DNA from: Candidatus Pullichristensenella excrementigallinarum
Lineage (GTDB): Bacteria > Bacillota > Clostridia > Christensenellales > Aristaeellaceae
DNA: 37,197 bases
Direction of reading: 5' to 3'
NCBI GenBank assembly: GCA_018714825.1
Contig: DVMU01000184.1
Coordinates: 1-37,197, forward strand
In this document: piece by piece, positions 16,737-30,700 of the stretch
Layout: every line of letters starts with the position of its first letter
Numbering within the stretch: position 1 is the first letter of the stretch
The notes under the pieces: generated by a model
What the model was told of the DNA's origin: nothing
Seen by the model: the letters and a program-made list of their open reading frames with translations, nothing else
The model's database searches: none
Translations under genes and position numbers: made by a program

Positions 16737-17303
16737 ATGATCGTGACGCTTGCGGCGGCGTTGGCCGCGGGATTTTATCTGGTAAACGTGCCCGTGAAAG
16801 TCGCGTTTTTTCTGCGCGCGGGCACGGGCGCTGGCTTTGGCGTGGGAATCTCTGCCTTTGAGGGACGCTTCGCCCTGTGCCAAGCTGAAAGGCGCCTGCA
16901 AAAAAAGCACGTCGCGTCCAAAAAAGCCCGGCGCGCTTCCGGAAAAACGCCCGCCGATGCGCAAAAAATCATCCAGAGCGTGAAATTATACGCCCCCGCG
17001 GCGCGCCTTGCGCTGCGCCACACGCGCCTGGAACTTCTCAGCGCCAACGCGCGCCTGTCCTTTTCGGACGCCGCGCACACCGCGCTTCTCACGGGAAGCC
17101 TGCGCGCGCTGCTGGAAATCGTGGGCGCGTGTTTTTCCGCGCCCACCGACGCCCGCATAGAGCCGGATTTTTCCGGAGCCTCTACCTATATGGAAGTGCG
17201 CGGAATCGCTTCCATCGAATTGGGGTATATTATTCTCACCGCATCAAAGGCTTTAAACAGGAGGGTTTCAAAATGGATCGACATCCGATTGAAGGCATCA
17301 TGA
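16737..17303 (+). CDS. DUF2953-like membrane-anchored protein
   Basis: N-terminal TM; C-terminal ...YMEVRGIASIELGYIILTASKALNR; position immediately upstream of GerW; SD GCGGAGG 6 nt before ATG 16737. Confidence 0.6.
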   Translation: MIVTLAAALAAGFYLVNVPVKVAFFLRAGTGAGFGVGISAFEGRFALCQAERRLQKKHVASKKARRASGKTPADAQKIIQSVKLYAPAARLALRHTRLELLSANARLSFSDAAHTALLTGSLRALLEIVGACFSAPTDARIEPDFSGASTYMEVRGIASIELGYIILTASKALNRRVSKWIDIRLKAS

Positions 17304-17707
17304 CCGCCACCATGGAAAACATCCGGGACATGGTGGATGTCAGCACCGTGGTCGGCGAACCCATCGCTGCGCCGGACGGTTCCACGGTCATTCCCGTCAG
17401 CCGCCTCAGCTTCGGCTTCGTCGCCGGAGGCGGAGAATACCCGGGATCGCGCAAAATCGAGACTCCCGCGCAATCCCCATTCGCCGGAGGCGCGGGCGCG
17501 GGCGTGAGCGTGCATCCCATGGGTTTCATCGTACTCACCCAGGGGCAGGCGCGCCTGCTGCCGGCGCAGCCCTATACGCCGCTGGATCGCGCTATCGAGC
17601 TGTTGCCGCAGCTCATGGCGGAGATTCGCGACGCACTGAAAAACCGGAACGCGAAAAAATGCGCTTCCGAAGCTCCCGACGCCCCTTCCCCCTCTCCGGA
17701 AGGCTGA
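17273..17707 (+). CDS. GerW family sporulation protein (YtfJ-like)
   Basis: MDRHPIEGIMTATMENIRDMVDVSTVVGEPIAAPDGSTVIPVSRLSFGFVAGGGEY...GAGAGVSVHPMGFIVL. Confidence 0.93.
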   Translation: MDRHPIEGIMTATMENIRDMVDVSTVVGEPIAAPDGSTVIPVSRLSFGFVAGGGEYPGSRKIETPAQSPFAGGAGAGVSVHPMGFIVLTQGQARLLPAQPYTPLDRAIELLPQLMAEIRDALKNRNAKKCASEAPDAPSPSPEG

Positions 17708-17794
17708 TTGTTCCCCCAAAATCCGTCTTGGCGGATCGCCGGGAAGGCAAGCGGAGGATTCCCCGCAAAACCCCTCTTTTATCTGCGCGTCGGA

Positions 17795-18000
17795 AAAGTG
17801 TTTTGACCCGCTCCATGATAATTCGCGGATTTTCATGGAAGAGGGCTGCGGAAATCTGAAAATTGCACGATTTTCCGGGCGGTTTCCTGGCCGGAGGAAT
17901 TGTTTTCCTCCGCCGGCGCTCAGGAAAAACCGGGCGCGACGTACATGCCGCCGCGCTCGATTTTGCAATGGTCTGCCCACAGAGCTTTTTCGAGAGTCTG
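17795..18000 (+). repeat. Dispersed structured intergenic element, copy A
   Basis: Shares CGCTCCATGA..A...GCGGATTTTC, CGGGCGGTTTCCTG, GCGCGACGTRCAYGCCGCCGCGCTCGATTT and CACAGRGCTYTYTCGA with the reverse complement of 27535-27705. Confidence 0.75.
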
Positions 18001-18021
18001 CTCTTTTATTTCGTTTTTGTC

Positions 18022-18050
18022 TTGACGATGTTAAATTTTCGGAATATAAT
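18022..18050 (+). promoter_or_regulatory. SigA promoter of the MFS gene
   Basis: TTGACG (18022-18027)-17 bp-TATAAT (18045-18050). Confidence 0.8.
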
Positions 18051-18083: not shown

Positions 18084-19310
18084 ATGAAAAAACACCCTCG
18101 ATATCAGGAATGGCTGCTGCTTGCGGCAATCTTCTTTTTCTGGTTTTCCTGTTACACCTATCCCTCCTTCTTTTCCGCCTATGTGGTCAATGTGCTCCAG
18201 GCGCCGGAAGTCACGGCGGGGCTGATCCTGGGGAGCTACGGTTTTATGCAGATGCTCCTGCGCATTCCGTTGGGCGTGGTTTCGGACGTTCTGCAAAAGC
18301 GCAAGGCCTTCGTTCTGATCGGCTTTGCGGCTTCCTTAGCGTCTTCCGCGGGACTGACGATTCTGGATCTTTCCCTGGGGGAGGGCGCGATCCCAACATG
18401 GATCCACATTGCGGCGATGCTCTTTCGCGGGCTCTCAGGTGTCGCGGCTTCGACATGGGTGACGCTCTCGGTGATGTACTCCTCCAATTTCCAAAAAGAG
18501 GAGATGCCCTCGGCCATGAGTCGCCTGATGGTGCCGCAATACGGTTCGCAAATCTTCGCCATGCTGCTCGGCTCGCACGTCGCGGGACGTTTCGGAGAAT
18601 GGACGGCCTTTGCCCTGGCGTCCGGGGCGGGCCTGTTGGGGCTTATCCTCGCCGCGATGGTCAAGGAGAACTGTCCGCAAAAAGAGCGCATGTCTCTGAA
18701 ATCCTTTTTCACCGTAGCCAAGGATCGGGATCTGTTCATAGGAACCGTGCTGGCTACGCTTTTGCGCGTGATCTGCTGGGGAACGGTGCTGGGTTTTTTG
18801 TCCACTTGGGCGCAGAATGCCGCCGGATTTACCACCGAGCAATTGGGATATCTCTCGGTGATGTACCTGCTTCCCAACACCATCATGGCCAGGTTCAGCG
18901 GCCCGGTCTTTTCCAAGCGCTTTGGGCGGCGCAACGTGTTGGCCGCGGGCTTTCTGATTCTGGCGATCGCCTGTTCATTGTATCCGTTCTCCCGTTCCCT
19001 GTGGCCTCTGATGGCGACGCAAACGGTCTTCGGCATGGGCATGGGTCTGATTTTGCCGCTGACGCTTTCCGCCTCAGTGGAAAATATTCCTCCGGAGCGC
19101 CGAGGCGTCTCCATGGGCATCTATCAGGCCGTGTACGGGGCGGGGATGTCCCTGGGGCCCGTGTTGGCGGGCTGGATCATCTCCTTGGCCACGACGCAGC
19201 TGGGCGGATATGTGATCAACTTTTATTTCAACGCGGTTCTTTCCGCGTTCGGCGCGGCGCTTTCCCTTCTCCTTTTGCGAAGCGAAAAAAATGACAATCC
19301 CCGGGCTTAG
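18084..19310 (+). CDS. MFS transporter
   Basis: 12-TM-like pattern; LGVVSDVLQKRKAFVLIG after TM2; ARFSGPVFSKRFGRRNVLAAG; PPERRGVSMGIYQAVYGAGMSLGPVLAG. Confidence 0.9.
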   Translation: MKKHPRYQEWLLLAAIFFFWFSCYTYPSFFSAYVVNVLQAPEVTAGLILGSYGFMQMLLRIPLGVVSDVLQKRKAFVLIGFAASLASSAGLTILDLSLGEGAIPTWIHIAAMLFRGLSGVAASTWVTLSVMYSSNFQKEEMPSAMSRLMVPQYGSQIFAMLLGSHVAGRFGEWTAFALASGAGLLGLILAAMVKENCPQKERMSLKSFFTVAKDRDLFIGTVLATLLRVICWGTVLGFLSTWAQNAAGFTTEQLGYLSVMYLLPNTIMARFSGPVFSKRFGRRNVLAAGFLILAIACSLYPFSRSLWPLMATQTVFGMGMGLILPLTLSASVENIPPERRGVSMGIYQAVYGAGMSLGPVLAGWIISLATTQLGGYVINFYFNAVLSAFGAALSLLLLRSEKNDNPRA

Positions 19311-27505: not shown

Positions 27506-27531
27506 GGGGCGGGCGTGAACGCGCCCGCCCC
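27506..27531. repeat. GC-rich perfect inverted repeat flanking element copy B (also possible weak terminator)
   Basis: GGGGCGGGCG-TGAACG-CGCCCGCCCC. Confidence 0.7.
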
Positions 27532-27534
27532 AAA

Positions 27535-27705
27535 CTGTCGAGAGAGCCCTGTGAAGAGAGTCCCTCCAAATCGAGCGCGGCGGCGTGCACGTCGCGCTCG
27601 ATTTTTCCGGGCACAAGCGAAGGAAAAAAACAGTTCCTTCGCTTCGTTCAGGAAATCGCTCGGAAAATCCGCAGGTTTTCATGGAGCGTGTTAAAAACCC
27701 TTTTT
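27535..27705 (-). repeat. Dispersed structured intergenic element, copy B (inverted relative to copy A)
   Basis: Reverse complement aligns with 17795-18000; hairpins AAGCGAAGGAA...TTCCTTCGCTT (27615-27644) and AAATCGAGCGCG...CGCGCTCGATTT (27568-27604). Confidence 0.75.
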
Positions 27706-27716
27706 GGCATGCAAAA

Positions 27717-27741
27717 GGGCGGCCGCAAATGCGCCCGCCCC
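27717..27741. repeat. Second GC-rich hairpin flanking copy B; shares GCGCCCGCCCCA with the hairpin at 27506-27531
   Basis: GGGCGGccGCaaatGCgCCCGCCCC; direct repeat GCGCCCGCCCCA at 27521-27532 and 27731-27742. Confidence 0.6.
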
Positions 27742-27757
27742 ACATACTTTCCTTCTC

Positions 27758-30700
27758 TTACAACACGCGCCGTCCCCACGAGAATACGCGATTGTAGTAG
27801 CCCGACCCGATCTCGCTGATGACAACTTTGCCCGCGCCGGAGGAAGCATGGATAAACTTTCCGCTTCCCAGATAGATGCCGACGTGATCGCTCAAATCGT
27901 TATCGGAAATCGTATTTAAGCACACGATATCCCCTCGTTTCAGATTTGAGACTCCTTCAACCTTTTTCCCTGCATTGTAGCCCTGATTCTGTGCCGAATG
28001 TGCGAGGGATACGCCAACTTTCCCATAACAATAACGGGTATAACCGGAGCAGTCAAAAGAGGAGGTTCCTGTCGCACCAAACACATACGGCTTTCCGAGC
28101 TGTTGCTGCGCGACATAGATCACATATTCAATCTTCTCCGAGTTCGTCGGGTTGGGCGGCAACTCGTCCATATCCGATCCCACATCCCCTGCACCCGAAC
28201 TACTTCCGGACGCGTCGGCCGCCGTTCCGGTATTTTTCGGCGCGCTGTTGGAATAGAGGGCCTGCAGCGTCTTGGAATCTGCCGTTCCGGTCGCGCTGAG
28301 TCCCGCCGCAGCCTGGAACAGTTTTACAGCGGAAGTGGTGATGCTTCCATATTCTCCATCCACACTGCTGGACTTGCTGAGATAGCCCTTGTAGTACAAG
28401 CGCGTCTGCAACCGCTGCACATTGGTGCCCGTACTGCCGCTGCTCAAGTTCAGCGAGAGCAACGGGGAAGCCGGCGCGTTTCCGCTCATCAGCACGCGGA
28501 TGGTATGGATATCCGCCTTACCCGTCTCCTGCAACCCGCTGACCGCTGCCTGGAAGCGTCGAACCGCCGTCTCGGTAAGCGAGCTATAATTGCCCGCGGG
28601 TTCTCCGTCAAAGTATCCATAGGCCTCGAGAATCTTTTGCAGGGCCAACACGGAGCTCCCGGAATCTCCGGAAGAGAGCTCGGGATACGATTCGCTGCTC
28701 AGGTGTTCCACCAACATGTAGCCGCGCGCGTCTCCCTTGCCCACATAGGCCCATTTCGAGTTGACCGCGTATACCGCGACCTCCGTTCCCTGCGGAATGG
28801 TCGTGCTGACCGCCCCTGTGGATTCGGAAGCATATACCGGAGCGGAGGGATAAATCACTGTGGCATACCCTTGTACCACACCAGGCTTCAATTCCGAATT
28901 GAGCGTCAATCCTGCCACCAAGCAGAAACCGTAATTGCCATTCAATTCAATCATGGCCCAGGTGGAATTCGCCTGCACGACATTGACCTGCGTTCCATAG
29001 GGCAGCGTGTACTTCTTGATGGTACTGGTGCTGGTCCCCGTATAGACGTCCAGTCCGTCTTTCGCCGTCACCGTGGCAGGAATGCAATCCTCCGGCGAGA
29101 CGGATACCGTCGGCGAGGGTTCCACTTCCACGCGCTGGAGCTTGGTCACATCGCAGAAACCGTAATTTCCATCCAGGCTCACCAGCGCCCATGTGCTGGT
29201 ATACTGATGCACCGTGACAACCGTGCCCTTCGAAAGCACGCCGATCTTGTTATTGCCCGTCGGGTCGCCATAGGTGTAGATGTCTTCCGTCGCCTGTGCC
29301 GAGAAATTGGCGTCTACCGGCGTTTCTTCCGTCGCGGACGGCGTGGGCGTCGGGGTCGGTTGCCCGGAAATCCCCTCCGTCGGGGCCAGGTTCTGGCGGA
29401 AGCAGAAGCCGTAATATCCCGCAATGGAGATATAGGCCCAACTCTCATTGTACAGAAGAACCGTCACTTCCGTTCCGGCCGGAAGCGTCCCCATCTTGGA
29501 GCCGGAAGTGCTGGGCTTTTTATAGACCACTGTGTTCTGGTTGGTCAACGCGGTAAACGTCGCAGTAACCGCTTCTCCGTCCGAGGGAATCGGAATCGTC
29601 GCGGAGGGAATCTGGGGCGTCGCGGTCGCGGTAGGATCCGTGGATCGCTCCAGCACGGTCACGTCGCAATATCCATATGCGCCGTCGATGCTCACCAGCG
29701 CCCAGACGCTCGTATACTCATGCACATACACCTGCGTCCCCTTGGAAAGCACGCCGATGCGCTTGCTCCCTACCGAATCCGAATACGCATAGGTCGCCTT
29801 GGTCACCTGCGCGTAAAAATCGCCCTTGGTGGCTTCCTCTTCGCGCTCAAGCTTTGAAACCTCACAGTATCCGTACGCGCCGTCGATGCTCACCAGCGCC
29901 CACACGTCCGTGTACTGATGCACATACACCCGCGTCCCCTTAGAGAGAATGCCGATGCGCTTGCTCCCTACCGAATCCGAATACGCGTACATCGATTTGG
30001 TAACTCGCGCGTAGAAGTTGCCTTCCGTGGCTTCCTCACTCGAATCGGCGGCATTGTCTTTCGAAGGCATGGGCGTGGCCGTCGCCGTTGAAGTCACCGG
30101 CGCCAACACGCTCACGTCGCAATACCCGTACGCGCCGTCCACGCTCACCAGGGCCCAGACGCTGGTATACTCATGCACATACACCTGCGTTCCCTTGGGA
30201 AGCGTGCCGATGCGCTTGCTCCCTACCGAATCCGAATACGCATAGGTCGCCTTGGTCACCTGCGCGTAGAAATTTCCCTCCGTGGCCTTCTCCGGCACGG
30301 GCGTGGCCGTGGCCGTATTCTGCCCGGGAAGCGCCAGATTTTTCTCCGGAGTATAGGCAAGATACCCGTCCGCCTCGACAATCGCCCAGCCATTGTCCGA
30401 TCCGAAATAATTCAGCGTCCATCCCTTTTTGAGCGATACGGAGGCGCTGGAAGTATTGGGCTTTTCATAGGCCTTTGCGCCGGAAACCGCCACCACGACC
30501 TTTTGAGAATACGCGGTGACTTCCGCCAAACTCGAGGCCTTGCAAAAGCCGCTCTTCCCGGTCGGCCTGTATGTAATGGCGCAGACGCCGCTCTTCGCCG
30601 CGGTGACCACCACCACGTCTCCTTTGGAAAGCGTCGCAATTTTCTTGGTCAGGTACATGTCCGAATAGACCGCCATGGAATCCGACGTGACGATGGCCGA

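Follow-up and report, generated by a model that had tools for sequence, protein, structure and literature searches.

Two copies of a structured element in the window

The window analysed here (37,197 nt) is one entire contig of a draft genome (2.18 Mb, 225 contigs, 92% complete). It holds two copies of a short, non-coding element of about 220 bp. Copy A lies between a Spore_YtfJ-domain gene (gerW-like, 17129-17707) and an MFS gene (18084-19310), and copy B lies on the opposite strand, with an NlpC/P60-SH3 gene on one side and a heavy-metal P-type ATPase gene on the other. An earlier note, made from the sequence of the window, had placed copy A at 17795-18000. The element is real and slightly longer than this (218 bp), and all of the sequence blocks quoted in that note are found in copies A and B. 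The features of the two copies are as follows.

17774..17782, + strand: left flanking direct repeat of copy A, CTCTTTTAT, 9 bp, without a hairpin (exact repeat abutting the element)
17783..18000, + strand: copy A, whole element (alignment of about 30 copies and profile scan; exact ends from the flanking repeats)
17785..17811, + strand: P0, left-end hairpin with the left terminal repeat, degenerate in copy A, consensus GCGTGTCAAAAAAGGATTTTGACACGC (sequence and consensus DNA fold)
17813..17838, + strand: P1, near-perfect palindrome CCATGATAATTCGCGGATTTTCATGG (sequence and consensus DNA fold)
17850..17887, + strand: P2, two-part hairpin with the conserved bulge CCGGGCG (14 covarying pairs)
17902..17930, + strand: P3, hairpin, consensus GTTTTTCC...GGAAAAAC (8 covarying pairs)
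17931..17959, + strand: P4, hairpin with the conserved loop NCGYRCANGYCGN (8 covarying pairs, 98% paired)
17978..18000, + strand: right end with the terminal repeat CACAGAGCTTTTTCGAGAGTCTG (like the right end of the IS1182 element)
18001..18009, + strand: right flanking direct repeat of copy A, CTCTTTTAT (exact repeat abutting the element)
27507..27532, - strand: right-side terminator hairpin of copy B, one copy of the target duplication (repeat family D19)
about 27533..27714, ends approximate, - strand: copy B, whole apart from an internal deletion of about 40 bp (comparison with copy A and genome search)
27572..27600, - strand: P4 hairpin of copy B (sequence)
27717..27742, - strand: left-side terminator hairpin of copy B, the other copy of the target duplication (85% identical to 27507-27532)

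The aligned copies of the element start with CTGCGTGTCAAAA and end with TTTTTCGACAGTCTG, which together form an imperfect terminal inverted repeat. The right end CACAGAGCTTTTTCGAGAGTCTG occurs at 20 places in the genome at up to three mismatches, compared with none for the control. The consensus DNA fold places P0, P1 and P2 in a row (z = -8.6), and P1 is absent in some genera.

Copy B is about 182 bp long and is flanked by a 26-bp hairpin duplicated at 85% identity. The block of about 40 bp that had been noted in copy A is indeed absent from copy B. It sits between two copies of GGATTTTC (the P1 3' arm and the P2 inner 3' arm), and copy B has therefore probably lost it by deletion between short direct repeats. 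No inverted repeat in the window is longer than the one made up by the right halves of the two copies (78 nt, 76%). Their arrangement as an inverted couple about 10 kb apart, which the earlier note had singled out, carries no special meaning; they are two of about 60 dispersed copies. Two further features were observed in the window. A good sigma-70-like promoter (TTGACG, 17 nt, TATAAT) lies at 18022-18050, 3' of copy A and 5' of the MFS gene, and 193-nt imperfect direct repeats (repeated cell-wall-binding modules) lie at 29134-30292, within the minus-strand NlpC/P60 gene.

Copy number, covariation and gene context

The repetition is far beyond chance: a genome search with copy A yields dozens of matches that are 77-87% identical, with E values as low as 1e-60, and the P4 loop motif CGCGACGTRCRYGCCGYCGCGC is present at 58 places in the genome, compared with three for the reversed control. 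Over the searches with copies A and B, the dozens of matches range from 75 to 87% identity. A profile search identifies about 60 non-redundant segments (E < 1e-10). The family therefore has at least about 60 members in this genome, a count that is a lower bound, with many copies at contig ends and each of the searches scoring no more than 40 candidates.

Within the same bacterial family, a covariance model built on helices P2-P4 detects the element in 32 of 100 genomes, representing 23 of 50 genera. Over the order, other families included, a second model detects it in 19 of 297 genomes, representing 17 of 125 genera; one locus in that set (L345) shows an exact 36-bp duplication containing a hairpin. 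No copies were found in two genomes of the same genus (G003 and G005), one of which (G005) carries several IS1182 fragments, and the presence of the element varies between close species. The consensus has no match in plasmid and phage collections. Several loci hold a partial copy (positions 1-179) joined in tandem to a full one across a common junction, CGCGCCCCTGCGTGTC. These tandem composites, in which the first copy is cut at position 179 within P4, were seen at G000:C160, C98, C120, C143, C155, C210 and C17, and possibly reflect either the movement of a single composite unit or several independent insertions into P4.

In an alignment of 70 copies from 19 genomes, which was fitted to the covariance model and so favours the structure somewhat, 96.9% of cells pair, compared with 71.2% after shuffling, and all 30 of the 30 pairs change on both sides. 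Double-changed cells number 495 against 124.6 ± 10.6 in shuffled alignments, with far lower counts in slid versions. A model-free MAFFT alignment (A1) gives ten double-changed pairs against 1.2. This strong covariation upholds the suggestion of the earlier note that structure is under selection, insofar as the helices covary; rewriting of arms by template switching could contribute. The first of the two hairpins described there (17886-17917) is only partly paired in most copies, overlaps the supported helix P3 and is not a family-wide covarying helix; the covariation is real, but it resides in P2, P3 and P4. The second hairpin, with a nearly invariant loop, corresponds to P4, the helix that carries eight covarying pairs and the widespread loop motif.

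All 26 of the scored left genes in this genome point into the element, with 18 convergent, seven same-direction and no divergent pairs, and the relatives contribute 16 convergent, 15 same-direction and eight opposite pairs, with none clearly divergent. These calls were made with a simple codon-usage score and may be wrong in single cases. There is no clearly divergent pair around any scored copy, and the element is therefore found at gene 3' ends.

Duplicated terminator hairpins and an IS1182-family transposase

Among the 27 complete, well-flanked copies in this genome, 16 are flanked by a direct repeat that scores beyond the 99th percentile of controls with swapped partners. At these 16 sites the repeat unit is a whole intrinsic-terminator stem-loop; for example, GCCCCGCCTTCCGAAAGGAGGCGGGG stands at both sides of the element at L019 and AGGAACCGTTTGCGCGGTTCCT at both sides at L018. 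In a similar test across many genera, 43 of 78 copies likewise exceed the 99th percentile of controls, and about 45%, including copy A, have no significant duplication. In this 78-copy set the length of the duplication tracks the length of the hairpin (r = 0.95), and the stem extends to the edges of the duplication (median of 0 and 1 unpaired nt). Element ends abut a stable hairpin in 84-88% of cases in this genome, compared with 40-52% at control positions 60 nt away. No T-tract bias was detected beside the duplicated hairpins (3.7 T on the right versus 3.7 A on the left).

At one locus (L255, G004:C165), one flanking hairpin copy is the exact reverse complement of the other, a pattern that may be a sign that such hairpins invert as DNA, after or during insertion. 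The loops of the flanking hairpin copies are in opposite orientation at L255, L014 and L081. A separate, diverged copy (L144, G022:C111) is flanked by the repeat CAAAGGCCGCCATCGCGGCTT, and one of the two instances extends into a coding sequence at its 3' end.

A site with an exact 27-bp duplication (L251) was compared with genomes that may retain the empty state. In the congeneric genome G052, a single hairpin stands after the orthologous upstream gene and the element is missing; no element follows the orthologous gene in G090. No allelic empty site was found among these comparisons, which are at gene level since the intergenic sequence is unalignable between species. The comparison favours insertion in a supportive sense only.

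This genome contains one IS1182-family transposase gene, which is cut by a contig start (G000:C1:1-1380, locus L138). Its product scores 433.9 bits against NCBIfam NF033551 (cut-off 270) and has the Pfam domains DUF772 and DDE_Tnp_1_6. The end of this insertion sequence (IS), CAGGGCTTTGTCAGTGGTCTG, is followed directly by a terminator hairpin, AATCGCGGCGGATATTCCGCCGCGATT. Full-length relatives are about 1.5 kb long, with ends CAGACCRTYGACAAAG and CTTTGTCARYGGTCTG, and exact hairpin duplications of 22-33 bp surround the relatives at L171, L178, L179, L180 and L182. The IS end abuts a hairpin in all 23 of the 23 cases with enough flank. The element has its right end and its target rule in common with the IS1182 relatives. 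At the left, its likeness to the IS end of this genome is only partial, and in other genera (G018 and G320) the element ends are near-identical to IS ends.

Co-occurrence of element and transposase is partial, several many-copy genomes having no detected transposase; the genomes concerned are drafts, and multicopy ISs often go missing from draft assemblies. Co-occurrence was unusable as proof of the partnership, being only partial. The likeness of the IS ends, the abutting hairpin and the duplicated hairpins of the relatives lead us to infer that the element is MITE-like and is moved by a hairpin-duplicating subgroup of IS1182 transposases. Of the classes offered in the earlier note, the REP/MITE-like one has support from the inverted repeats at the termini, the duplicated target sites, the contexts of insertion and a partner transposase.

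Proposed transposition model, alternatives and known systems

The interpretation that we consider quite probable is that the element is a non-autonomous, MITE-like DNA transposon mobilized by a hairpin-recognizing IS1182 subgroup that duplicates whole terminator stem-loops. An IS1182-family transposase would mobilize the element through its terminal inverted repeats and would join the two 3' ends of the element to the 5' feet of an intrinsic-terminator stem-loop, which would probably be extruded as a cruciform. Fill-in of the gaps would then duplicate the entire stem-loop, leaving the element between two terminator copies, and a terminator on each side would mean little harm to the neighbours. 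The body would be a chain of DNA hairpins, P0 to P4, in which pairing is kept rather than most of the sequence, with the loop NCGYRCANGYCGN and the bulge CCGGGCG conserved alongside it, and the internal hairpins may act as DNA structures that are recognized during transposition. More tentatively, the family might be read by shape in both element and target, the body being conserved as a chain of DNA hairpins, with stems swapped wholesale between genomes around one loop and one bulge that are fixed over an order, and the target being any terminator hairpin, which is duplicated in full.

A repeated structured RNA, spreading as DNA with its core conserved for the function of a transcript (a 3' UTR element or small RNA), would also account for the very strong covariation, the conserved unpaired motifs and the copies at gene 3' ends. 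The element moreover follows transcription in 22 of 30 pooled same-direction cases (p = 0.016), a modest bias that leaves an RNA effect with some scope. Orientation was dropped as a strong sign of RNA function, the ratio being 7:0 in this genome and only 15:8 in the relatives. The mismatch spectrum speaks against a transcript: in 1,840 cells of the element there are 20 G.U and 28 A.C pairs (18 and 26 with each genome counted once), whereas the RNase P RNA of 25 same-family genomes has 155 G.U and 26 A.C pairs in 1,783 cells (Fisher p = 3e-9 for the contrast), although the RNase P helices were predicted by a G.U-accepting method, which tilts that count somewhat towards G.U. Even when the element is scored by this method, it has 19 G.U and 24 A.C pairs. 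Consensus pairs also differ between genomes nearly always on both sides (219 double-sided versus 10 single-sided differences). No Rfam family matches at the gathering score in the window and 20 relatives. Covarying helices, as expected of an RNA family, are present, but wobble-tolerant, strand-specific pairing and a curated Rfam match are not. A functional RNA is therefore rather unlikely, and the element is probably not a small RNA, as the earlier note had allowed. Because the mismatch spectrum is strand-symmetric, with no excess of G.U over A.C, it points to complementarity kept in DNA rather than RNA. Its source may be either hairpins that are recognized as DNA or one arm rewritten from the other by template switching; the symmetry alone does not show recognition of DNA hairpins, as template switching could produce it.

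Mobilization by some transposase outside the IS1182 subgroup described above would fit the partial co-occurrence and the left ends that differ from the IS ends in this genome. The common right end, the unusual hairpin-duplicating rule shared with the IS1182 relatives and the near-identical ends in genera such as those of G018 and G320 make it improbable. It is scarcely credible that the repeat is immobile and that the paired hairpins beside it arose by local duplication of terminators or as assembly artefacts. The draft is in 225 contigs with many copies at contig ends, which would fit this reading, but the duplications abut the element ends, vary by site and recur in many genomes, some with few contigs, and swapped-partner controls have no such duplications.

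The preferred reading, that of a MITE-like transposon with an IS1182-type partner, makes a proposed and rarely seen mode of transposition testable, the duplication being seen at dozens of sites in many genera for both an insertion sequence and a miniature element. A transposon that lands in and copies terminators could reach a high copy number at little cost, and its insertion alters the 3' ends of many genes. The absence of a wobble excess also provides a simple test of DNA-level versus RNA-level covariation, which matters for the mining of genomes for new RNAs.

The element is real, mobile, widespread and conserved in structure, and it is apparently undescribed: no description of this repeat or of a hairpin-duplicating IS1182 subgroup was found in the literature covered, ISfinder and most subscription papers being outside its scope. 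Structured intergenic repeats of the ERIC type are dispersed and have a foldable body. In integron attC sites the stem sequence is free to vary, and what is conserved is the DNA hairpin together with certain unpaired bases; the comparison concerns the way of working only. The element has terminal repeats and target duplications, and attC sites have neither. The element is far longer than REP/BIME sequences (20-40 bp hairpin, GTAG-type foot, linked to a Y1 transposase, RAYT) and has target duplications. The pneumococcal repeats BOX, RUP and SPRITE are like it in having many dispersed copies and a foldable body and in being sometimes nested (PMC10969869). The element itself gave no match by sequence or in Rfam. 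It is flanked by duplicated terminator hairpins, which are not reported for BOX, RUP, SPRITE and ERIC in the literature covered. Bacterial MITEs in general, according to the same review (PMC10969869), are likewise short, non-coding, intergenic and high in copy number, with terminal inverted repeats and target duplications. The target duplication of the element is instead variable and consists of a whole terminator hairpin, its helices covary across many genera and it is not an internally deleted IS.

In targeting, the element resembles IS1272/TnSha1 of staphylococci, which have an IS1182-family transposase and stem-loop targets, often terminators, without sequence preference (PMC4923244, PMC5678879). 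Stem-loop replacement was described for IS1272 by Wan et al. (PMC5678879), and Furi et al. reported terminators as targets, with the stem-loop partly deleted and no duplication (PMC4923244). There the stem-loop is deleted or replaced, there is no target duplication and no miniature partner is described, whereas here the whole stem-loop is duplicated, exactly so at L171, L178, L179, L180, L182 and many element copies. Wan et al. also set out a hypothetical pathway b, in which a cruciform is attacked at its 5' feet and the stem-loop would be duplicated in its entirety (PMC5678879), and the hairpin-duplicated sites are what this pathway predicts. The element is thus a variant that combines a MITE with IS1182-type hairpin targeting and not a new class.
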